64,000 nucleotides of DNA from Geothrix sp. 21YS21S-4 (GTDB taxonomy: Bacteria; Acidobacteriota; Holophagae; Holophagales; Holophagaceae). The stretch is from the NCBI RefSeq assembly GCF_030845995.1, contig NZ_CP132719.1, positions 1,798,001 to 1,862,000 of the forward strand, in the 5' to 3' direction. The notes beneath the pieces are model-generated. The model did not search any database, was not told the DNA's origin, and was given only the letters and a program-made list of their open reading frames with translations. Both the position numbers and the translations under genes were made by a program. The number at the start of each line of letters is the position of its first letter. Within the stretch, counting starts at the first letter, position 1. This document shows positions 52,232 to 64,000 of the stretch, piece by piece.

Positions 52232-53446
52232 TTACGCCAGGTTCGCCAGGACCAGGCGCCGGACGGCGTGGATGACGTCGTCCACATCCTCGTCCGTCAG
52301 CCCGGGATGGAGCGGCACGCTCAGCATCCGGGAATAGGCGTCGGCGGCCACGGGCAGGGCCTCGGGCAGGTACCCGTACTTATCGCGGTAGAAGGGGTGC
52401 ATGTGGACCGGCAGGTAGTGGACCGAGGTGCCGATGTTGCGGGCCTTCAGCTCATCGATGAACGCGTTGCGGTCGATCCGCAGCAGCTCCGGGCGCAAAC
52501 GCAGGACGTAGAGGTGCCAGCTGGATTCCGCCCAGGGCAGCTCCACGGGGAGCTGGAGGGCGGCCAAATCCGCGAAGCCCGCGGCGTAGCGGGCCACCAC
52601 TTCCCGCCGCCGCCGCTGGAACGCTTCGAGGCGCTTCAGCTGCTGGAGGCCGATGGAGGCCTGCACGTCGGTCATGTTGTACTTGAAGCCGGGCAGGACG
52701 ACCTCGTAGTACCACGAGCCCGACCGATCGAAGCGCTTCCACGCGTCGCGGTTCATCCCGTGGTGCCCGATGATGCGGCACTTCTCGACGAGGGCGGGAT
52801 CGCCCGTGACGCAGCCCCCTTCGATGGTGGTGAGGTTCTTCGTGGCGTAGAAGCTGAACGCCGCCAGGTTCGCGCGGGACCCGACGAGCCGGCCCTTGTA
52901 GTGCGTGGGAATGGCGTGGGCTGCGTCCTCGAGGACGGCGAGGCCGTGCTCCTCGGCAAGGGCGTCCAGCTCGTCCATCGCCGCCGGGTGGCCCGCGTAG
53001 TGGACGGGAAGTAGCACCTTGGTGCGGGGCGTGATGGCGGCGCGGACGGCCTCCGGCGACAGGGTGAGCGAATCGGGGGAGACGTCCACCAGCACGGGCT
53101 TCGCGCCGACGTGCTCCACCACGTTGGCGGTGGCGCAGAACGTCATGGAGGGAACGATCACTTCATCGCCGGGTCCCACGCCCAGCGCCACCAGAGCCAC
53201 GTGGAGCCCCGCGGTGCAGGAGTTGAGGGCCACCACGCCGGGAGCCTGGAGGTAGTCCTTCAGCGCCCCTTCGAAAGCGTGGGTCTTGGGGCCCGTGGTG
53301 ACCCAGGGCGACTGGAGGGTGTCCATCACCTCCGCCCGCTCGGCGTCGCCGATGGTGGGCGGATTGTAGGCGAGAAAGTCGGTCCGCGCGGGACGATCCT
53401 CGGAGACGGAGGCCCGGGGAGAGTCGGGGACGGAAAGGGGATTCAT
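52232..53446 (-). CDS. DegT/DnrJ/EryC1 family PLP-dependent sugar aminotransferase
   Basis: 404 residues. PLP site: Lys in AFSFYATKNLTTIEGGCV, Asp in VLEDAAHAIPTHYKG, and the GDEVIVPSMTFCATANVVEHVGAKPVLVDV segment. HMHPFYRDKYGY and PLHPGLTDEDVDDVI are the usual family tail. It adds an amino group to a UDP-4-keto sugar. Together with the PglC-type enzyme just downstream it may supply a 4-amino sugar as the first residue of the repeat unit. TGATG overlap with the upstream glycosyltransferase. Confidence 0.9.
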   Translation of the reverse strand: MNPLSVPDSPRASVSEDRPARTDFLAYNPPTIGDAERAEVMDTLQSPWVTTGPKTHAFEGALKDYLQAPGVVALNSCTAGLHVALVALGVGPGDEVIVPSMTFCATANVVEHVGAKPVLVDVSPDSLTLSPEAVRAAITPRTKVLLPVHYAGHPAAMDELDALAEEHGLAVLEDAAHAIPTHYKGRLVGSRANLAAFSFYATKNLTTIEGGCVTGDPALVEKCRIIGHHGMNRDAWKRFDRSGSWYYEVVLPGFKYNMTDVQASIGLQQLKRLEAFQRRRREVVARYAAGFADLAALQLPVELPWAESSWHLYVLRLRPELLRIDRNAFIDELKARNIGTSVHYLPVHMHPFYRDKYGYLPEALPVAADAYSRMLSVPLHPGLTDEDVDDVIHAVRRLVLANLA

Positions 53447-54705
53447 CAGATGCCTCCGGCGGGTTGGGCGAGAAGGTGGTCGAAGGTCTGGAGGTAGTGC
53501 CGGATCGCGGACCGGCGGGAGAGGTGGGCCTCCACGTAGTCGCGGCCCTGGCGGCCCTCCTGCCGCACGCGCTCCGGCGCGTTGCGGTATTCGAGGATCA
53601 CCTGCGCCAGGCGGGCGGGATCGCAGGGCGGAACGACCGCGCCCGAGCGGCTCTCCCGGATGGCGACGGCGAGGGGGCTGTCCTCCTCCACGCAGCCGAC
53701 GACCGGGCGGCCCGCGGCGAGGTAGTTCCAGGTCTTGCTGGGGACGGCGATCCGGGCCGCGCCGGGCTTGAGGGGGATCACGCCGAGGTTGCAGGCGTTG
53801 TAGACGAAGGGCACCTGGTCCAGGGGCTGGAGGGGGAGGAACACGCAGTTCGAAAGGCCCCGCTCCTTCGCCAGCTCCTCCAGGGCGCGCTTCGCGTTCC
53901 CATCGCCGATGAACACGAACCGGATGTCCGGGATCTCCTTCAGGCACTCCGCCGCCAGGACCACGGATTCGAGGTTCTGCATCAGGCCGATGGTTCCCGC
54001 GTACTGGACCACGAACACGCCGCCGCGGCGGAAAGCCGTGCTGGCGGGGCTGTCCCCCGGCTGGATGTGATCGGTGTCCACCCAGTTGGGGATCGTGGCC
54101 ACCTGCGTGCCCGGGACGGTCCGCTGGACGTAGTCCGAGAAGGCGGGGCTGATGGAAGCCACGAGGTCGGACACGCGGTAGGTGGCCTCCTCCGCCTTCC
54201 GCAGCCAGCGGTAGAGCCGGCCGTTTCCGGTGAGCAGCCCGGCCACCACCGCCGAATCGGGGAAGATGTCCTGGAGGTTGTAGACCAGCTTCGCGCCCTT
54301 CAGCCGGGCGAGCAGGGCCGCGGGCAGCCCCGCCAGGGGCGGCGTGGAGGCCACGAAGATCAGATCCACGTCCCGTACCGCGAGCCCCCGCAGCAGGAAG
54401 AAGGCCATGAACCAGAGGTATTCCCCGAACTTGTGGAACATGCCCAGGCGCCGGAGGAAGGGGTTCCAGGCCCGGTGGATCCGGCCCTTCAGCCGGGGAT
54501 GGTCCGTCATCACCGGACGGGCCGCCAGGGCGGGTCCGTTGGTCAGGACGGTGACTTTCAGTCCCTCCTCCGCCAGCCCCTCCGCCAGGGCCTTCATCAG
54601 GTCGGTGGAAGCACTGGGGATCGGCGCGAAATAGGGCGTGATGATCAGGACGTGGCCGAGGCCCGCCGCCGTTTCAAAGCGCTCGCGGAGTGGGGGAGAG
54701 GTCAT
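53446..54705 (-). CDS. Glycosyltransferase GT4, WcaI/WbuB-like
   Basis: 419 residues from ATG at 54705 (overlaps the upstream stop, ATGA). GHVLIITPYFAPIPSASTDLMKALAEGLAEEGLKVTVLTN at the N-terminus; AKLVYNLQDIFPDSAVVAGLL; VSDLVASISPAFSDYV; then FVVQYAGTIGLMQNLESVVLAAECLKEIPDIRFVFIGDG and PLKPGAARIAVPSKTWNYLAAGRPVVGCVEEDSPLA as donor-binding elements. Cytoplasmic GT-B enzyme acting on a lipid-linked intermediate. Sugar specificity unknown. Confidence 0.85.
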   Translation of the reverse strand: MTSPPLRERFETAAGLGHVLIITPYFAPIPSASTDLMKALAEGLAEEGLKVTVLTNGPALAARPVMTDHPRLKGRIHRAWNPFLRRLGMFHKFGEYLWFMAFFLLRGLAVRDVDLIFVASTPPLAGLPAALLARLKGAKLVYNLQDIFPDSAVVAGLLTGNGRLYRWLRKAEEATYRVSDLVASISPAFSDYVQRTVPGTQVATIPNWVDTDHIQPGDSPASTAFRRGGVFVVQYAGTIGLMQNLESVVLAAECLKEIPDIRFVFIGDGNAKRALEELAKERGLSNCVFLPLQPLDQVPFVYNACNLGVIPLKPGAARIAVPSKTWNYLAAGRPVVGCVEEDSPLAVAIRESRSGAVVPPCDPARLAQVILEYRNAPERVRQEGRQGRDYVEAHLSRRSAIRHYLQTFDHLLAQPAGGI

Positions 54706-56417
54706 GCTCGGGTTCCGTGGGAAAAGGTTCCGGGAGAAGTGAATTCGCCCCCTCGATCGCTGGCCCACACCGGCTGCGAGAGGGCCAAGTGGGGCAACCG
54801 GACCCGGGCCCGGCGCTCCCTCCGCTGGATGCCCGGGGCCGTCGCCTCTTCGGAAGGAAGGGGCGGACGCAACTCCAGGCGGAGGTGGATGAGGCGGTCG
54901 GTGCTCTGGGCGGGAACTTCGACGAAACCCGCGCGCTCGTTGAGCTGGCGGGCGCGGTGATTCTTGCGGCGGACCCCCGTGGTGACGGCCGCCATCCCGC
55001 GCTCGCGACAGACGCGGATCGAGGCGTCCTTGAGGGCCTTCCCCACCCCCAGCCTCCGGTAGTCCTCATCCACGGCCGTGAAGGCGATCTGGGCCACTTT
55101 CTGTTCCTGGGCCTGCGGCTTGCTCCGGGCGAACATGCGCAGCGCCCGCCCGACGATCTCCCGGTGGAAAAGGGCACCGGGATGGCGCAGGCAGCCCCGG
55201 ATGAGTTCGCGGCGGCAGGCCCGCATCATGGGCAGGTTGTAGGGCCGATCGGCCAGGGTGGTGAATCCGATGATCCGCTCCCCCTGCCGCGCCACCAGGA
55301 CGCAGATGTCGGGGGAGGCCAGGAACCACCGGTACACGGCCTCGATGAACGCCTTCCCCAGGCGGACCGGGATGTGGTCGTGCCCGGTGAAGCACCTCAC
55401 GTGGAGGTCCACCAGGGCGTTGAGGTCCAGGCGCGTGGCCGTGGTCACCTGGAAGCTCTTGGCGTCCGCCAGGAGCGCGGGCTCCGGCACCAACCGGCGG
55501 CGCTCGGGCTCAAGCCGCGGAGGCCACACCTGATCTTCCAGGGGCTTGAGGCCCTCGAGGTAGAAGCGCATCATCCCCTCCGCCTTGGCGAGGGAAGGAT
55601 TGGAGGGATCGCGGTCGAGCAGCCTCTGCGTCCAGCGGTGGACGGCAGGCAGGGCGAAGGGCCGGATCAGGGGATTGAAGTCGACGCACTGGCGGACCAG
55701 CTTGGGCCGGAGCCCCATCCGGAACTTGAACTCGTCCACGTTCGAGGGCGCGTCCAGGGACTGCACGGTGTAGAAGATCCCTTCCACGCCTTCGCGCTGC
55801 AGCAGCTCCCGGCTCACCGCGTAGAACAGCGCGTTGTTCACGTGCTCCGCCAGGAAGCGCCGGTGGCTGAGGGCGAAGGGGACGGAGAAGACCGTGCCCT
55901 GCCGCACGCTCATGAGGGCCGCGGCCAGCTCACCGTTGGAGGTCGCCGCCCAGGCCTCGAACCCCGGCAGTCCCGACGCGGCCGCGCAGGTCCGCCGCCA
56001 ATCCGCTTCGGTCATGCTGCGCACCCGCTCCTGGCGGGCCAAGGTGTCCTGCTGAAGGGCCCAGCCCTCCGTCGCCAGCCGCTCGAAGGAGATCCGCTCG
56101 ATCCCGAAGCGGCCCAGGCCTGCGCGGATCCCATTGCGAGCCTGGGGTTTCAGGTGATCCAGCGAATAGGGCTCGTTCACCACGACGTGGTAGCTGGCCA
56201 CTCCCCGCGGCGCGTCGAAGGGCGCGGAGTAGCGGAGGGCCAAGCCGCCGTGGCGGAGCATCAGCTCCCGGACTTCGGCTTCGCTGGGGGTGATGGTCCA
56301 GTGGTAGGGGAAGGCCTGGAACACGCCGGGAGCGGCGTTGTACCAGTGGCTGCTCTCCGTCCGCACCACCCGGTGGCCCCGGCGGCGCAGCCATTCTGCG
56401 AACAATTCCGTGTTCAT
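54702..56417 (-). CDS. FemAB/GNAT-like acyltransferase fused to a C-terminal GNAT N-acetyltransferase
   Basis: 571 residues; ATG at 56417 chosen because it aligns exactly with the start of the paralogue at 57.9 kb (MNTELFAEWLRRRGHRVVRT versus MTPETFAQWLRRLGHRVVRT). Residues 1-320 are this paralogous domain: WYNAAPGVFQAFPYHW, GIRAGLGRFGIERISFERLATEGWALQQDTLARQ, AEHVNNALFYAVSRELL and SLDAPSNVDEFKFRMGL. Residues about 350-505 are a GNAT domain with acetyl-CoA loop VDEDYRRLGVGKALKDASI and RKNHRARQLNERAGFVEV. The combination suggests acylation of an amino sugar in the locus polysaccharide. First gene of the leftward aminotransferase/transferase cluster. Confidence 0.7.
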   Translation of the reverse strand: MNTELFAEWLRRRGHRVVRTESSHWYNAAPGVFQAFPYHWTITPSEAEVRELMLRHGGLALRYSAPFDAPRGVASYHVVVNEPYSLDHLKPQARNGIRAGLGRFGIERISFERLATEGWALQQDTLARQERVRSMTEADWRRTCAAASGLPGFEAWAATSNGELAAALMSVRQGTVFSVPFALSHRRFLAEHVNNALFYAVSRELLQREGVEGIFYTVQSLDAPSNVDEFKFRMGLRPKLVRQCVDFNPLIRPFALPAVHRWTQRLLDRDPSNPSLAKAEGMMRFYLEGLKPLEDQVWPPRLEPERRRLVPEPALLADAKSFQVTTATRLDLNALVDLHVRCFTGHDHIPVRLGKAFIEAVYRWFLASPDICVLVARQGERIIGFTTLADRPYNLPMMRACRRELIRGCLRHPGALFHREIVGRALRMFARSKPQAQEQKVAQIAFTAVDEDYRRLGVGKALKDASIRVCRERGMAAVTTGVRRKNHRARQLNERAGFVEVPAQSTDRLIHLRLELRPPLPSEEATAPGIQRRERRARVRLPHLALSQPVWASDRGGEFTSPGTFSHGTRA

Positions 56418-57026
56418 GGGCACCCCGCGGCGGACGGGAAGGACTCGGCTCGATTCATGGGATCTCGGGCGTCGGCGGGTGGAGGGAATCGGCCCGGGGG
56501 AGATCCCCGGGGCCGGGTAGGTTGAGACAGAGATACCAAGACATGTTCATCCATTTTTTCCTCATGTAAACCTGGTTTGTCAACCTTCGCCAAAGATCCT
56601 TTCCGGATCCCATATGCTTCCGCCGCCTCCGCCGACCTCCCACCGGATGAATTTGCCTGGAGAGAAGAAGCATTTCGCTTTCCTCTGGCGAAGAGGACAT
56701 TCCACGCTAACCTTGGATAAGAAAAAATACACATATACCCCTTCCCGAGCGTGTAAGATCACATCGACCCCCCAGTTTCCCTTGGATGGACTCCGGTGCC
56801 CCGGGCGATGGTCGCTTGCGGCGCTCTTCTCTTCTCACCGATGTCCTCAGCGCTTCGCGAGGCCGAGCATGCTGATTTGCGGCGTCCCACCGCGCCCCCC
56901 GCTTCCCTGCGGGGCGGGCGAGGGATGGGTGCTCGACGCAAGCGGAACCGGCGCGGCTTCTCTCCGCCTCGTCCCCGCGCTTCAAGCCCGCCGCCCGGGG
57001 ATACCAGCCCCCTTCCTTGAGCTTCC
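56418..57026. other. Large divergent intergenic region (609 bases) between the acyltransferase fusion and proline dehydrogenase
   Basis: No credible gene was found here on either strand. The middle (about 56530-56760) is markedly AT-richer than the surroundings. On the minus strand a perfect -35 TTGACA lies at 56578-56583, followed at 19 bases by AAAAAT (weak -10). On the plus strand TTGGAT (from about 56713) is followed 15 bases later by TATACC. The right third (56800-57020) is GC-rich, with no recognisable RNA. Confidence 0.4.
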
Positions 57027-57941
57027 ATGATCCGCACCCTCGCCTCCGTCCTGGCTCGGCAGGCCTGGTTCCGCAAAGCCGTTCTGGGCACGCCCGTTCT
57101 GCGCGATCTCGCCGGGCGGTTCGTGGGTGGGGACGATCTTTCGGCGGGCCTGGCGGCGGTGCGCGGCCTCAATGCGCGGGGAATCCGGGGCTCCCTCAAT
57201 TTCCACGGGATGCACGCGACGGACCCGGCCGAGGCAATCGCCGCGGCGGACGAGGCCCTGGACGCCCTGCACCGGATCCGCGCGGAAGGCCTCGATTCCC
57301 ATGTCTCCGTGAAGCTCACCAAGCTCGGCCTCGACGTGGATCCGAACCTCTGCCTGGCGCAGCTCCGCCGCGTGCTCGACGGCGCCGCCGAGACGGGCGG
57401 ATTCGTGCGGATCGACATGGAGGAAGCGGTCTACGTGGACCAGACGCTGGGAATCTTCGAAGCCATGCAGGACCACTACGGCGCCGGGACCGTGGGCCTG
57501 GTGATCCAGTCCTACCTGCGGGGCCGCGAAAGGGACCTCGACCGCCTGCTGGAACGGGGCGCCCGCGTCCGCCTCGTGAAGGGGGGCTACCGCGAATCCG
57601 CGGCGGCCGCTTTCCGGTCGGCGGCGGAGGTGGACGCGGCGTTCCGGCGGGACATCGAGCGGCTGCTGGCGCGGGGCGTCTTCCCCGCCATCGCCACCCA
57701 CGACGCCGGAGCCGTCGCCTGGGCCCAGGAGCTCGCGGCCCAAATGGGAATGGAGAAGACGGCGTTCGAATTCCAGATGCTCTACGGCGTGAAGCCGGCC
57801 CTCCAGGACCGGCTGGTGGCGGAGGGCTACGCCGTCCGCTGCTATGTGCCCTACGGCGGCGACTGGGCCACGCACCTGGTGGGCTGCCTTCGCCGCCTGC
57901 CGGCGAGCGCGCTGGCCCACGCCCGGGGAGAGGCCGCGTGA
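57027..57941 (+). CDS. Proline dehydrogenase (monofunctional PRODH)
   Basis: 304 residues, the size of bacterial monofunctional PRODH. Conserved barrel elements are intact: SHVSVKLTKLGLDVDPNL, GFVRIDMEEAVYVDQTLGIF, GTVGLVIQSYLRGRERDLDRLL, VRLVKGGYRESAAAAF (FAD/substrate Lys region), FPAIATHDAGAVAWAQEL, and FEFQMLYGVKPALQDRL with GYAVRCYVPYGGDW. The N-terminal segment reads GIRGSLNFHGMHATDP, unlike the usual 'LGExV'. It oxidises proline to pyrroline-5-carboxylate with FAD. No P5C dehydrogenase is nearby; instead its stop overlaps the GTG of an acyltransferase-like gene. Confidence 0.9.
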   Translation: MIRTLASVLARQAWFRKAVLGTPVLRDLAGRFVGGDDLSAGLAAVRGLNARGIRGSLNFHGMHATDPAEAIAAADEALDALHRIRAEGLDSHVSVKLTKLGLDVDPNLCLAQLRRVLDGAAETGGFVRIDMEEAVYVDQTLGIFEAMQDHYGAGTVGLVIQSYLRGRERDLDRLLERGARVRLVKGGYRESAAAAFRSAAEVDAAFRRDIERLLARGVFPAIATHDAGAVAWAQELAAQMGMEKTAFEFQMLYGVKPALQDRLVAEGYAVRCYVPYGGDWATHLVGCLRRLPASALAHARGEAA

Positions 57942-58918
57942 CGCCCGAGACCTTCGCCCAATGGCTGCGCCGGCTGGGGCACCGGGTGGTCCGCACCCCC
58001 AGCAGCTACTGGTACGACCTGGGTCCCCGGGTGTTCCAGGCCTTCCCCTACCACTGGGTGATCCGCCCCCAGGAGGACGAGCTGCTGGATCTCCTCCGGC
58101 GGGAGAGAGCCATTGGCCTGCGCTACTCCACGCCCCTGGACGCCGAGGAAGGCTCGTGCAGCTACCACATCGTCTACGACCGCCCGGAGTACGGACTCAA
58201 GAACGTGGATCCCTCCATCCGCGCCAAGGTCCGCCGCGGGCTGGAAGCCAGCCACGTCGGTCCCATCTCCATGGAGCGCTACGCCCGGGAGGGCTGGTCC
58301 ATCGAGCAGGACACGCTCGCGCGGCAGCACCGCCACGCCCGCCGGGGCCAGAACCGCTGGGAACGGATGGTGGAGGCCGCCGCGGATCTGGAAGGATTCG
58401 AGGTCTGGGGGGCCGAAGTGGAGGGACGCCTCGCCGCGAGTCTGATGTTCGTGCGGATCGACGACTGCGTGGATCTCCTGTACCAGCAGTCCCTCCGCGA
58501 CTACCTTCCCCTGCGCGTCAACAACGCCTTGATCTTCGACGCCACCAAGGAACTGGTGGCGCGGCCGGGCGTGCGGATGATCCACAACGGGGTCCACTCC
58601 CTGGACGCGCCGGACACCGTGGACCGGTTCAAGGTCCGGCTGGGCTACACGGTGAAGCCCGTCCGCCAAAGAGTGGTGTTCCATCCCCGCCTGGCCCGGT
58701 GGTTCGGGCCCCGGGCCTCGAATCTCCTGGAACGCCTGGCCGCGCTATATCCCGCCAACGAGTTCATCCGCAAGGCCGAGGGCCTGACCCGCTTCTACTG
58801 CAACGGAAAGCTCCCCGCCGGCCGCCAGCAGCTTCCCGGACTGCTGGAGTCGCTGGGGACGGGTTTCGCCGATTCGGACTGCCAATTCCCCTGGATCCTG
58901 CCCAAGGAAGCTCCATGA
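57938..58918 (+). CDS. FemAB/GNAT-like acyltransferase, stand-alone paralogue
   Basis: 326 residues from a GTG overlapping the proline dehydrogenase stop. It matches the first domain of the fusion protein at 54.7-56.4 kb along its whole length: WYDLGPRVFQAFPYHW, RRGLEASHVGPISMERYAREGWSIEQDTLARQ, LPLRVNNALIFDATKELV, SLDAPDTVDRFKVRLGY and PANEFIRKAEGLTRFYCNG. No CoA loop of the classic GNAT kind is visible, so the donor could be aminoacyl- or acyl-linked as in FemAB-type enzymes. Its stop overlaps the next ATG. Confidence 0.65.
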   Translation: MTPETFAQWLRRLGHRVVRTPSSYWYDLGPRVFQAFPYHWVIRPQEDELLDLLRRERAIGLRYSTPLDAEEGSCSYHIVYDRPEYGLKNVDPSIRAKVRRGLEASHVGPISMERYAREGWSIEQDTLARQHRHARRGQNRWERMVEAAADLEGFEVWGAEVEGRLAASLMFVRIDDCVDLLYQQSLRDYLPLRVNNALIFDATKELVARPGVRMIHNGVHSLDAPDTVDRFKVRLGYTVKPVRQRVVFHPRLARWFGPRASNLLERLAALYPANEFIRKAEGLTRFYCNGKLPAGRQQLPGLLESLGTGFADSDCQFPWILPKEAP

Positions 58919-59961
58919 CCGCCCCCAATCCAATGACCGTCCATGGCGAGACCCGGGGCCGAGCCCTGTTCATCGACCGACTAAACCGGCTGTATGTAGC
59001 CCGCAAATACCGCATTTTTCGCTCCGACGACGGCGGCGCCAACTGGACATTGGATTGTTGGGTGCCTGCTTCCGGGTGGGCCCCATTAACCCTGAGTTCC
59101 TCTCTTACCGCTCGCCTGTTCAGAGTGAATATCCAGGCTTTTCAAGTGCTTGATGATGGAACTCGCATAGCCGTCGCTCGAGATGGAATCTATCGAGCAG
59201 CCCCAGGAGAGTCCCGTATGACCCGGACCTGGTCCGTAGTTCGCGGAGCTCGTCCGATCGCCCTTTCGGCCCATGGCTCCCGATTATTATTCGGTGAATA
59301 CGGTCGAATAGGGATGGAGCAATTAGCACTGCGCATCTACGTTTCCGAGGACGGTGGTTGCCATTTTGAACCCTTCTTTGAGTTTCCCAAGGGGGATATC
59401 CATCATGTCCACAATGTGGTCGTAGATCCTTATTCAGACCACTACTGGGTTCTGACTGGCGATTACGGAAGAACACCGGGGATCGCAGCTTTATCTAGAG
59501 ATGGTCGCTGCCTGGATTGGGTGGATCGGGGCCATCAAATGGTCCGAGCAGTCAACGCCCTGCCCCGTCCTGATTGCCTGATCTATGGATCCGATACAGA
59601 TCTGGAACCAAATTTTCTCATCCGATTGGACAAGAAGACAGGCCGTTGGGACCGCCTTCACCCGACGGAAGGAAGCGCGCTCTTTGCTGCTGACGCGGCG
59701 GGCATGGCACTTGTCTCTACCAGCTCAGAAGCGGTGACACGTGGAACGATCCCTTCCTGCAATCTCTATGGAAGTCGAGATGGTGAAAACTGGACTCGCC
59801 TTCTCTCTTTCACAAAAGACATCTGGTCCCCCATGCTTCATTTTGGCGTCGTCGTATTGCCTGCCGTTCAAGCCGCCAATATCTCGCGCTGGATGTTCAG
59901 TGGCCAAGCATTGGTCGACCATCATGACCGAGTCAGCGTGATGGGTTATCAACAGGGCTGA
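58915..59961 (+). CDS. BNR/sialidase-type beta-propeller protein, AT-richer than its neighbours
   Basis: 348 residues. Asp-box-like repeats typical of six-bladed propellers: IFRSDDGGANWTL, IYVSEDGGCHFEPF and LYGSRDGENWTRLL, with intervening blades (GIYRAAPGESRMTRTWSVV; WVLTGDYGRTPGIAALSRDG). No signal peptide. Whether it is an enzyme is unclear because the sialidase Arg triad cannot be assigned. From about base 58980 the DNA is visibly less GC-rich, with A/T-ending codons (TTATTATTCGGTGAATAC), unlike every neighbour, suggesting acquisition by transfer. Its ATG overlaps the upstream stop. Confidence 0.72.
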   Translation: MTAPNPMTVHGETRGRALFIDRLNRLYVARKYRIFRSDDGGANWTLDCWVPASGWAPLTLSSSLTARLFRVNIQAFQVLDDGTRIAVARDGIYRAAPGESRMTRTWSVVRGARPIALSAHGSRLLFGEYGRIGMEQLALRIYVSEDGGCHFEPFFEFPKGDIHHVHNVVVDPYSDHYWVLTGDYGRTPGIAALSRDGRCLDWVDRGHQMVRAVNALPRPDCLIYGSDTDLEPNFLIRLDKKTGRWDRLHPTEGSALFAADAAGMALVSTSSEAVTRGTIPSCNLYGSRDGENWTRLLSFTKDIWSPMLHFGVVVLPAVQAANISRWMFSGQALVDHHDRVSVMGYQQG

Positions 59962-60028: not shown

Positions 60029-63000
60029 CTATCGCTGGATCCCGATCTTGGAGACGTCGATTCCCGGGAAGCCGGGGATGCTGTACATCGGGCTGGAGGG
60101 CTGGAGGCGGAAGTCGAGGTTCGCCGGGTCGACGAACAGGGGGTCCGCCTGACTGAGGTTTGCGCCCACTTTGGTGAACCAGGTCAAGGGCGCGGCCAGG
60201 GACGTCGCAGAGTTGTGCTGGCGGTAGGCGTCTCCGGAACCGCCCTGCTGGAGGTTCCCGTAACAGGCCGAGCCCCCGGGCTCCAGCCAGCTGGTGCCCG
60301 CCAACAGGGACCAGGAGTTGGGAATGAGCGCCACGTGGGGATAGGCGGTCGCCCAGGCGCCCGACTGGTAGTTGAAGTGCTGGAGCTTGCCGAGCAGGTT
60401 CCAGGTGGAACCCGCGGTGTTGTTCACGAACTCGAAGCCCACGTTGCTGATGTCCACGCCGTACCAGTGGCCGCTGAAGACGTTGTATTGGGTCTCCACA
60501 TTGCGCCCGCCGTTGTGCTGGATGGCGTAGAGGGGAGCGACCTTGTAGAGGATGTTCGCCTCGATCTTCACGCCGCTCCCGACGCCGTCGATGTAGATCC
60601 CGGAAAGGGCCGTCCCCAGCGGGCTGCCGCAGTTGCGGATCAGATTGTTCTGGATGAGGTTCCCCTGCGTGCCCCACTCGCGGCCGGTGGTGTAGATGAC
60701 GCCCGCGTCGTTCGTCCACTGGGTGGCGTCGTAGATGAGGTTGTACCGGATGGTGTTTTCGTTCCCACTGTAGAGGATGGCCGCGTGCGGCGAATCGTGG
60801 ATCTCGTTGTTCTGGACGGTGATCCCGATGGCGTCGTTGTTGTAGGTGTAGTCGGTGAACGACTGGATGTTGACGGCGGGCTGGTAGGTCCAGAACAGGC
60901 GCCCGAAGGCCTGGAACTCGGAGTTCTGCACCACGGTCCCGCTGCGGGTCAGGCTCATCCGGTCGCCTCCGGCCACCCACACGCCGCCCTTCCCCAGGTC
61001 GCGGAAGTCGCAGCCGTCCACGAGGTTGGAAGAACCGCTCAGCAGCATCCCGTAGCCGCCGGCGTTGCGGAACGTGCAGTTCTTGAAGGCCACGGAGGTG
61101 CAGCTGCTGCCGTAGACCAGGCGGTCCCGCGCGCCCTCGAAGGTGATCCCGTCCCACGTGATCTGCTGGCACCCCTGCATCTGCACGAGCGGCGTCTGGA
61201 GGGTGGAGATGAGGACTTCGGTCGGCGCCTGGTCCTTCACGGGACGCAGGTAGAGCTTGGCGTTCGTGCGATCGATGAAGTACTCGCCGGGGGCCGTCAG
61301 TTCTTCCAGCAGGTTATAGACGAAGAAGGGCTGACCCAGCCGCAGGCCATAGGTGGGGGACGACGCGAGAACCATCGCTCCCGTCGTGGGATCGAGGGAG
61401 GTGAGCGCGCTGTGGCTGCCCGACCAGCTGTAGTAGCCCAGGCCGTAGTACATCGCCTCGGCCGCGCGCCACCGGGTCATCCGCGAATCCGGGGCGGTGA
61501 GCTGGTTGGTGCCGTTGGTGCTGCGGATCAGGAGGAAGCCGGGCACCGGATTCGAGCCGTCCGCCGGAGCCAGGAACGCCGTGCCCGAAGCGCCGGACAG
61601 GGGCGCGAAGGCGCCCACGGGCCCCGCGAAGGTATCCCAGGTTCCCCAGGTGGCGGTGGAAGAGCCCGTGCCGCCCAGATCCTTGCGGTTGGAGATCCGC
61701 CAGTCTGCTCCCGCCGCGATGGCGGCGATGGACCAGAGATTGCCGCCCTTGGAGAGCTGGTAGTAGGGCCGGCCGAGGCTGTCCAGGCCCTTGTAAGCGT
61801 AGTCGCCGGTCACGTCGGGCGACAGGGTGCCCGTCACGCGGATGGTGGTCTCCGTCGCCAGGTTCACGGAAGAGGCTTCCACCGCCTTGGGATAGCGGGC
61901 CAGGGTGAGGGGCACGCCGTTGACGAAGACCTCCATCGCCTGATTCACCGTGCCGCCGGAATCCGAGCGGCTGGTGAGGTTACCCAGGTTCGAGGCGTAG
62001 GCGGACAGATCCACCACGTAGATCTTGGAGCGCGTGGAGGAATCCAGCCGGGACCAGTTGACGTCCGTCCCATCCACCGGCTTGACGTTGGCGACGTTCA
62101 GCGCGACACCGCCCACCAGCCGGGGCGTCTCGTTGGGATAGGCCTGGTAGACCACCGGATTGGCGGAGGAGCCCGAATCCGAGGACGTGAGGCTGAAAGT
62201 GGAGGTGCGGGGGTAGATGCCGCCGCGGAGCAGGACGCGGAGCGTTCCCGCACTGGCCCGGCTGGCGCTCTGGAGAAGGGCCTTGGCCCCTTCCAGGGTC
62301 GTGGGGGCGGTGACGGTGCCCGCGTTCCCCTGGACGCCGTTGGGCGCCACGATGATGCCCGAGGGGATGGCCGCCGCCTGGACCGTGACGACCGCCGACC
62401 CCTTCTTGGTGGCATCCGTCAGGCTGGTGGCCGTGATGGTGTGGGTGCCGGCCGCAGTCGGCGCCGTGTACACCACCGCCGTCCCGTTCACGGCGAGGGT
62501 GCCCACAGTGGCGCTGCCGTTGGTGATTCCATCGACCGCCCAGGCCACGCCCGCGCTCGACCCGCTGACCGTCGCCGCGAAGGACTGGGTGGCCCCGGAA
62601 GCCAGGGTGGACGTGGTGGGACTCAGTGCCACGGTCACCACCGGCGCCTGGACCGTGATGGTCGCGGAAGCGCTCTTCGTGCTATCGGCGGAACTGGTGG
62701 CCACCACCGTATGGGTGCCCGCCGCATTGGGCGCGGTATAGGTGGCCGTCGTCCCGCTCCCGGCGATGGTTCCCGTGGTGGTGTTCCCCCCGGCGACACC
62801 GTCCACGGTCCAGGTGACGCCTGCCGTGGAGCCGGAAACGGTGGCGGTGAAGGCGAGGGTCGCGCCCGCGGCCACGGAGGATGTGGTGGGGCTCAGCGTG
62901 ACGCCCACCGGAGGGGCCTGGACCGTGATGGTCGCGGAGGCGCTCTTGGTCGCATCGGCCGAACTGGTGGCCACCAGCGCGTGGGTTCCCGCCGCCGTGG

Positions 63001-64000
63001 GGGCCGTATACGTCACGGTGTTGCCCGTCCCCGACACCGTGCCGGTGGTCGAGTTCCCCCCGGCGATACCGTCCACCTTCCAGGTGACGGCGGCGTTGGT
63101 GGCGTTGGACACCGTAGCGGTGAAAGAAGCCGTTCCCCCCGACGCGACCGTGGTGGCGGTGGGAGTGAGAGCCACACTCACCGGCGTGGGCGCCTGGACG
63201 GTGATGGTCGCGGAAGCGGATTTGGTCGTATCGGCGGTGCTGGTGGCCACGAGGACATGGGTCCCACCGGCCGCCGGAGCCGTATAGGTGACGGTGGCCC
63301 CTGTGCCGGAGACCGTGCCCGTCGTGGCGTTTCCACCGGCAACGCCATCCACGGTCCACGTGACGGTGGTCGTGGTCGCATTGGAGACGGTGGCCGTGAA
63401 GGAGGAAGTGCCCCCCGCGGCCAAGGTGGTGGCATTGGGATTCAAGGCGACGCTCACGGGCGTGGGAGCCTGCACCGTGATGGTGGCCGTGGCCGACTTG
63501 GTGGCATCCGCGGCGCTGGTGGCCTTCAAGGTGTGCGTTCCCGCGGCCGCCGGAGCCGTATAGGTCACCGTCGAGCCGGTCCCACTGATCGTGCCGGTGG
63601 TGGCGTTTCCGCCGGCTATACCGTCCACCGTCCACGCGACTCCGGCGGAAGATGCCCCCGTTACCGTCGCGGTGAAGGAGGCGGTGCTGCCCGCGAGAAG
63701 GCTGGCCGAAGCGGGATTGAGCGCGACTCCGACCGTGACCGGGACAGCCTGAACCGTGATGGCGGCGGAGGCCGACTTGGTGGCATCGGCCGTGCTCGTG
63801 GCGGTGAGCGTATGGGAGCCTGCCGTCCCCGGCGCGGTGTAGGTCACGGTGGCACCGGTGCCGGTCACCGTCCCCGTCGTCGTATTCCCGCCCACGACTC
63901 CATCCACGGCCCAGGTCACGGTCGTGGTGGAAGAGCCCGTCACGGCGGCCGTGAAGGAGGTGGTTCCTCCCGCAATCAGACTCGCCACGGTGGGGTTGAG
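60029..64000 (-). CDS. Giant secreted protein: tandem Ig-like repeats plus right-handed beta-helix, N-terminus outside the window
   Basis: At least 1323 codons with no start in the window: the frame is open at base 64000 (reads LNPTVASLIAGG). The visible order is six Ig-like repeats of about 90-93 residues, each ending TITVQA or similar, then from about 62.37 kb a beta-helix domain beginning GIIVAPNGVQGNAG...TLEGAKALLQSASRAS and VLLRGGIYPRTSTFSL. Helix turns such as FKNCTFRNAGGYGMLLSGSSNLVDGCDFRDLGKGGVWVAGG, VQNNEIHDSPHAAILYSGNENTIRYNLIYDAT and GNLIQNNLIRNCGSP follow. It shares the start (GGIYP/GGLYY, PVVYQAYP/PVVYEAFP) with the beta-helix protein at 44-46.5 kb. Probably a surface adhesin or polysaccharide-active protein. 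Confidence 0.85.
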   Translation of the reverse strand, partial: LNPTVASLIAGGTTSFTAAVTGSSTTTVTWAVDGVVGGNTTTGTVTGTGATVTYTAPGTAGSHTLTATSTADATKSASAAITVQAVPVTVGVALNPASASLLAGSTASFTATVTGASSAGVAWTVDGIAGGNATTGTISGTGSTVTYTAPAAAGTHTLKATSAADATKSATATITVQAPTPVSVALNPNATTLAAGGTSSFTATVSNATTTTVTWTVDGVAGGNATTGTVSGTGATVTYTAPAAGGTHVLVATSTADTTKSASATITVQAPTPVSVALTPTATTVASGGTASFTATVSNATNAAVTWKVDGIAGGNSTTGTVSGTGNTVTYTAPTAAGTHALVATSSADATKSASATITVQAPPVGVTLSPTTSSVAAGATLAFTATVSGSTAGVTWTVDGVAGGNTTTGTIAGSGTTATYTAPNAAGTHTVVATSSADSTKSASATITVQAPVVTVALSPTTSTLASGATQSFAATVSGSSAGVAWAVDGITNGSATVGTLAVNGTAVVYTAPTAAGTHTITATSLTDATKKGSAVVTVQAAAIPSGIIVAPNGVQGNAGTVTAPTTLEGAKALLQSASRASAGTLRVLLRGGIYPRTSTFSLTSSDSGSSANPVVYQAYPNETPRLVGGVALNVANVKPVDGTDVNWSRLDSSTRSKIYVVDLSAYASNLGNLTSRSDSGGTVNQAMEVFVNGVPLTLARYPKAVEASSVNLATETTIRVTGTLSPDVTGDYAYKGLDSLGRPYYQLSKGGNLWSIAAIAAGADWRISNRKDLGGTGSSTATWGTWDTFAGPVGAFAPLSGASGTAFLAPADGSNPVPGFLLIRSTNGTNQLTAPDSRMTRWRAAEAMYYGLGYYSWSGSHSALTSLDPTTGAMVLASSPTYGLRLGQPFFVYNLLEELTAPGEYFIDRTNAKLYLRPVKDQAPTEVLISTLQTPLVQMQGCQQITWDGITFEGARDRLVYGSSCTSVAFKNCTFRNAGGYGMLLSGSSNLVDGCDFRDLGKGGVWVAGGDRMSLTRSGTVVQNSEFQAFGRLFWTYQPAVNIQSFTDYTYNNDAIGITVQNNEIHDSPHAAILYSGNENTIRYNLIYDATQWTNDAGVIYTTGREWGTQGNLIQNNLIRNCGSPLGTALSGIYIDGVGSGVKIEANILYKVAPLYAIQHNGGRNVETQYNVFSGHWYGVDISNVGFEFVNNTAGSTWNLLGKLQHFNYQSGAWATAYPHVALIPNSWSLLAGTSWLEPGGSACYGNLQQGGSGDAYRQHNSATSLAAPLTWFTKVGANLSQADPLFVDPANLDFRLQPSSPMYSIPGFPGIDVSKIGIQR
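62375..64000 (-). repeat. Tandem ~276-bp coding repeats (Ig-like domains), six visible
   Basis: Six consecutive units (81+ partial, 93, 92, 92, 90, 90 residues) with shared TTxTVTWxVDGxAGGNxTTGTxxGTGxTVTYTAP and GTHxLxATSxADATKSASATITVQA cores. The first unit is cut by the window edge, so the true number is higher. Protein identity between units is high, which favours unequal recombination and length variation. Confidence 0.9.

Follow-up and report, generated by a model that had tools for sequence, protein, structure and literature searches.

Locus and genomic setting

The question raised by this locus is why a gene for a relative of proline dehydrogenase (PRODH) should be coupled to a gene for a Fem-like transferase, facing a polysaccharide cluster. 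The window, i.e. the whole 64,000-nucleotide stretch analysed (G000:C1:1798001-1862000), belongs to the chromosome of a Geothrix strain (Acidobacteriota), whose complete genome measures 3.08 Mb. The locus is formed by three genes, reported in Table 1 together with the other features discussed below. A preliminary description, made from the sequence, had them overlapping by GTGA and ATGA, and the coordinates confirm overlaps of four bases each at the gene 1/gene 2 and gene 2/gene 3 junctions, respectively. The cluster faced by the trio encodes Wzz/Wzc, Wzy_C, glycosyltransferases and a DegT/DnrJ-type aminotransferase, the latter being the likely source of an amino-sugar acceptor. A GNAT-fused paralogue of the transferase, previously placed across the 609-base divergent region, was found there on the minus strand, and is 46% identical to the gene 2 protein.

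No P5C dehydrogenase (P5CDH) gene adjoins the trio at the locus, as already described; this absence does not extend to the genome, which encodes a P5CDH-like aldehyde dehydrogenase, scoring below the TIGR01237 cut-off, at C1:2615567-2617117. A canonical PRODH is also encoded elsewhere in the genome (C1:1304951-1305769), and only one of the relatives searched lacks a PRODH of the canonical type. Given the separate canonical PRODH and P5CDH-like genes, proline catabolism is unlikely to depend on gene 1.

Three sister genomes have a gene for a CmcH/NodU-type carbamoyltransferase at the position of the divergent region, beside the dehydrogenase gene. It is absent from the window, where no carbamoyltransferase remnant was found in the divergent region.

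Table 1. Features of the locus and of related loci. Positions are those of the window, unless a locus is named.
Feature	Position	Strand	Notes
Gene 1, PRODH-like flavoprotein of the GC clade	57027..57941	+	304 aa; Pfam PF01619, 2ekg match, residue mapping
Gly286-Cys287 codons	57882..57887	+	canonical Arg-Arg site (T. thermophilus R288/R289; E. coli PutA R555/R556)
Gene 2, Fem-like (double-GNAT fold) transferase	57938..58918	+	326 aa, GTG start; AlphaFold, PDB matches
Lys232 codon	58631..58633	+	invariant among 12 relatives; position of catalytic Lys305 of Weissella FemX
Gene 3, Asp-box protein, probably beta-propeller	58915..59961	+	348 aa; weak Asp-box matches, GC/GC3
Divergent region, 609 bases	56418..57026	.	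between paralogue and gene 1
Paralogous Fem-like domain fused to GNAT domain	54702..56417	-	acetyl-CoA loop RRLGVG in GNAT domain
DegT/DnrJ-type aminotransferase of the polysaccharide cluster	52232..53446	-	~85% identical to G226 counterpart
Large Ig-like plus right-handed beta-helix protein gene	60029-63988		convergent with the propeller gene in 4/4 Geothrix loci having the propeller
CmcH/NodU-type carbamoyltransferase genes	L059:8327-10039, L058:4748-6460, L098:8662-10374		~80% identical among the three

A PRODH relative lacking the Arg-Arg pair

The gene 1 protein matches the Pfam Pro_dh family (2.8e-32, 112.8 bits for a cut-off of 27) and the T. thermophilus PRODH 2ekg (2.6e-50); its NCBIfam PRODH score is 220, against a cut-off of 500. 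With the monofunctional PRODHs (2ekg/2g37 from T. thermophilus, 4h6q from D. radiodurans) and the PRODH domain of PutA, it shares the barrel family, the catalytic Lys, Tyr and Asp and the FAD-site motifs. Residue mapping places T. thermophilus K99, D133 and Y275 on K96, D130 and Y273 of gene 1, and the FAD-site/barrel motifs THD (224-226 in gene 1) and VKG are conserved. Gene 1 differs from these enzymes in having Gly-Cys (G286-C287) in place of Arg-Arg (R288-R289) and an arginine (R290) in place of the partner glutamate (E292), and, within a polysaccharide cluster, in being paired with a Fem gene rather than with P5CDH. In PutA, the arginine pair binds the carboxylate of the substrate (PMC10651016). 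A shift in the alignment was considered as the cause of the apparent loss, and was rejected, as no gap occurs between YVPYG and the proline that follows. Two arginines are found three residues beyond the canonical pair, in the arrangement GCxRR: R289 is invariant in all nine members of the clade described below, R290 in eight (Gln in G122).

Judged from its sequence, therefore, gene 1 does not encode an ordinary proline dehydrogenase. Its earlier reading as a proline-oxidising enzyme is not supported, given the replacement of the arginine pair throughout the clade and the canonical PRODH encoded elsewhere. A catabolic enzyme lying by chance beside a polysaccharide cluster, whose P5C would pass to the P5CDH encoded at a distance, would agree with the Pro_dh family membership, the conserved catalytic Lys and Tyr and the P5CDH-like gene; the missing clamp, the second, canonical enzyme, the low NCBIfam score and the presence of Fem genes as neighbors, instead of P5CDH or P5C reductase, make it very improbable.

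The GC clade

The Gly-Cys replacement defines a small sample of nine loci, several of them from MAGs, distributed among Acidobacteriota, Planctomycetota and Chloroflexota: six Geothrix genomes, one genome of a neighboring genus (G122), one Planctomycetota MAG and one Limnocylindrales MAG. Gly-Cys is present in 9/9 of them and Arg-Arg in all canonical PRODHs examined; a tree built without the motif columns supports a single origin of the nine loci (SH-aLRT 99). Two other candidates were tried as members and rejected: G459, which retains the RR pair (L100) and has no detected Fem gene, and plasmid-borne relatives, whose identity is at the canonical level only.

Loss of the substrate-binding residues might also be expected of a catalytically dead flavoprotein, or of a scaffold. 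The catalytic Lys, Asp and Tyr and the FAD-site motifs are, however, invariant across a clade which has diverged to ~52% identity, rendering such a role improbable.

Proteins of the clade receive the label 'proline dehydrogenase' from automatic annotation, and the GC motif offers a simple rule to separate them from catabolic PRODHs. Within the limits of the library searched, no description was found in the literature of the GC clade, or of a link between PRODH, Fem proteins and polysaccharides.

Association with Fem-type transferase genes

A gene of the Fem/Acetyltransf_6 type is found within ~2.4 kb of the dehydrogenase gene at 9/9 clade loci. It directly follows the dehydrogenase gene in the window and at L059, L098, L099, L034 and L061, is divergent from it at L042 and convergent at L060, and lies ~2.4 kb off, past the carbamoyltransferase gene, at L058. 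At L099, L034 and L061 the transferase is of a second FemAB type, overlapping the dehydrogenase gene by four bases in the former two; its similarity to the FemAB family XrtA/PEP-CTERM system-associated protein (TIGR03019) is weak (1.7e-5, 24 bits for a cut-off of 260). By comparison, Fem profiles produced no matches at about 70 canonical PRODH loci, many of which were represented with 1.5-kb flanks only. Similarly, in a Pfam analysis of 82 neighbors from 21 canonical loci, both P5C reductase and aldehyde dehydrogenase are listed; the 25 commonest families include none of the Fem type.

Of 47 genomes from Geothrix, 5/6 with the clade dehydrogenase and 0/41 without it carry the window's Fem family (Fisher p = 4e-6, a value which overstates independence, the genomes being related). 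The closest Fem orthologue of G001 is unlinked, at a chromosomal site distant from the dehydrogenase gene, and its presence in that genome indicates that the association is more than one of neighborhood. The two genes are not strictly dependent on each other, since the Fem family is also found without the clade dehydrogenase in G007, where it lies beside a DegT gene, and in G119; for the same reason the dehydrogenase looks like an add-on to the Fem genes. Overall, the arrangement of genes 1 and 2 exceeds what chance would produce, that of gene 3 less clearly so.

At the loci with the second FemAB type two further genes were observed. In two phyla (L099:8832-9797, L034:8587-9570) the dehydrogenase-FemAB pair has a PylC-like ATP-grasp gene (PRK12767 type) divergently upstream. 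In G122 a PqqD-like gene (TIGR04353, HPr-rel-A system, below cut-off) adjoins the FemAB gene (L099:4501-4764).

Fold of the gene 2 protein

The gene 2 protein has no match at all in NCBIfam, and was evaluated through its AlphaFold model (pLDDT 86), which displays the double-GNAT fold of Fem proteins. A fold search, carried out with residues 1-282, gave as best PDB matches Sbb17 and Sba18 (Z 18.3-18.5), aminoacyl-tRNA-dependent peptide synthases, with the Sba18 entry and one of the Sbb17 entries solved with streptothrisamine; FemX follows with Z 17-18, MprF and ordinary GNATs ranking lower. In the FemX match, residues 87-233 of gene 2 are aligned to 155-306, which puts Lys232 on Lys305, catalytic in the Weissella enzyme; moreover, the rFK motif of a gene 2 relative aligns with Sba18. 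The predicted structure thus resembles that of the aminoacyl-tRNA-dependent Fem enzymes, with the catalytic lysine kept.

Sba18/Sbb17 and Orf11 (streptothricin-type antibiotics), FemX and the alanyl-PG synthase are all aminoacyl-tRNA-dependent Fem/GNAT transferases. Gene 2 resembles Sbb17/Sba18 and FemX in the fold (Z 17-18.5), the position of the catalytic Lys and the lack of a CoA loop, and differs from these transferases in identity, only 10-16%, in its polysaccharide-cluster context and in having orthologues with an extra, CoA-type GNAT domain. The CoA loop, absent from the Fem part, is present in this extra domain, both in the paralogue and in the orthologues. The latter measure 533-567 aa, with the GNAT domain, missing from gene 2, at the C-terminus; at L060 the domain is a separate gene, immediately before the propeller gene. 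A tRNA donor is inferred for the gene 2 protein; acyl-CoA or other molecules may also serve as donors for proteins of the Fem fold.

Aminoacyl-tRNA donors, typical of Fem-type enzymes (PMC12945691), also bear on the earlier proposal that proline oxidation feeds a P5C- or glutamate-derived group, through the transferase, onto a glycan. The recurrence of the transferase pairing would suit this proposal, which does not fit the altered free-proline site of gene 1 or the donor class; in addition, glutamyl-tRNA can be obtained without any dehydrogenase. A P5C- or glutamate-derived donor is accordingly considered improbable.

A possible role in polysaccharide tailoring

The reading that we prefer, to which a probability of about 0.45 is assigned, is that genes 1 and 2 encode tailoring enzymes for an amino sugar in the polysaccharide that the neighboring Wzx/Wzy-type cluster produces, by Fem aminoacylation followed by amine oxidation. 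The DegT aminotransferase, whose gene is found beside a Fem gene also in the absence of the dehydrogenase, would make the amino sugar; the Fem-like protein would move an amino acid from aminoacyl-tRNA onto its amino group; the PRODH-like protein, with FAD and the conserved catalytic Lys, Tyr and Asp, would then oxidise an amine in the product. A candidate substrate is a sugar-bound prolyl (pyrrolidine) amide, the oxidation of which would yield a pyrroline or, by ring opening, an aldehyde. Loss of the Arg-Arg clamp agrees with a substrate in which the carboxylate is already engaged, and the protein may thus oxidise an amine devoid of the free proline carboxylate, possibly that of an attached residue.

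Alternatively, the GCxRR arginines could hold a carboxylate one helical turn away, and the substrate could be a free amino acid, or another amine, larger than proline, with the Fem enzyme attaching the unusual product. The conservation of R289 in 9/9 and R290 in 8/9 clade members is consistent with this, and the divergent PylC-like ATP-grasp gene could, at its two loci, activate such an acid. Fem enzymes draw on tRNA, to which an unusual acid would first have to be charged by some route; besides, no ATP-grasp gene was seen adjoining the dehydrogenase gene at the trio loci of Geothrix. Oxidation of a free acid of this sort is conceivable, if rather unlikely.

A more specific form of the preferred, tailoring reading would make the clade a class of PRODH-fold flavoenzymes oxidising a residue (proline, or some other amine that is cyclic or secondary) attached by a Fem enzyme to a polysaccharide sugar, and leaving an imine or aldehyde on the surface glycan; this is doubtful. 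If true, such a group would provide chemistry for cross-linking or adhesion. Should the substrate of the clade be new, at least three phyla would share a new flavoenzyme activity linked to the aminoacylation of glycans.

Gene 3 and a possible variable site

Gene 3 probably encodes an Asp-box protein with a beta-propeller fold, as suggested by weak BNR matches in 4/6 of its relatives; the AlphaFold model has a pLDDT of 36, and no solved structural relative was found. The preliminary description took the overlaps to mean that the three products are needed together, and proposed a search for their conserved co-occurrence. One of the refuting outcomes named there, a trio confined to this genome, was not obtained: another Geothrix MAG (L059/L033) carries PRODH, Fem-GNAT and propeller genes in this order. 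What is supported is the recurrence of the dehydrogenase/transferase pair in polysaccharide clusters; the propeller gene is absent from 6/9 clade loci, and both G239 and distant Acidobacteriota have it without the dehydrogenase. An obligate, conserved third member was therefore rejected, also in view of codon usage, and the propeller gene is regarded as the neighbor of a variable cassette.

In composition, gene 3 (GC 55%, GC3 0.55) departs both from genes 1 and 2 (GC3 0.89) and from its own orthologues (0.87-0.91), the drop in GC3 coinciding with its start; the pattern points to recent import or recombination, with a lower-GC lineage as the source. Together with the occurrence of the gene, this codon usage makes the gene 2/gene 3 junction of the window look like a recombination point, at which the GNAT domain would have been lost.

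In G239 (L120:1-8882) the propeller gene adjoins, in place of the dehydrogenase/Fem pair, a cassette of genes resembling, by sequence, those for an ACP, an acyl-AMP ligase and an asparagine synthase. The spot next to the propeller gene may be a site for variable tailoring cassettes.
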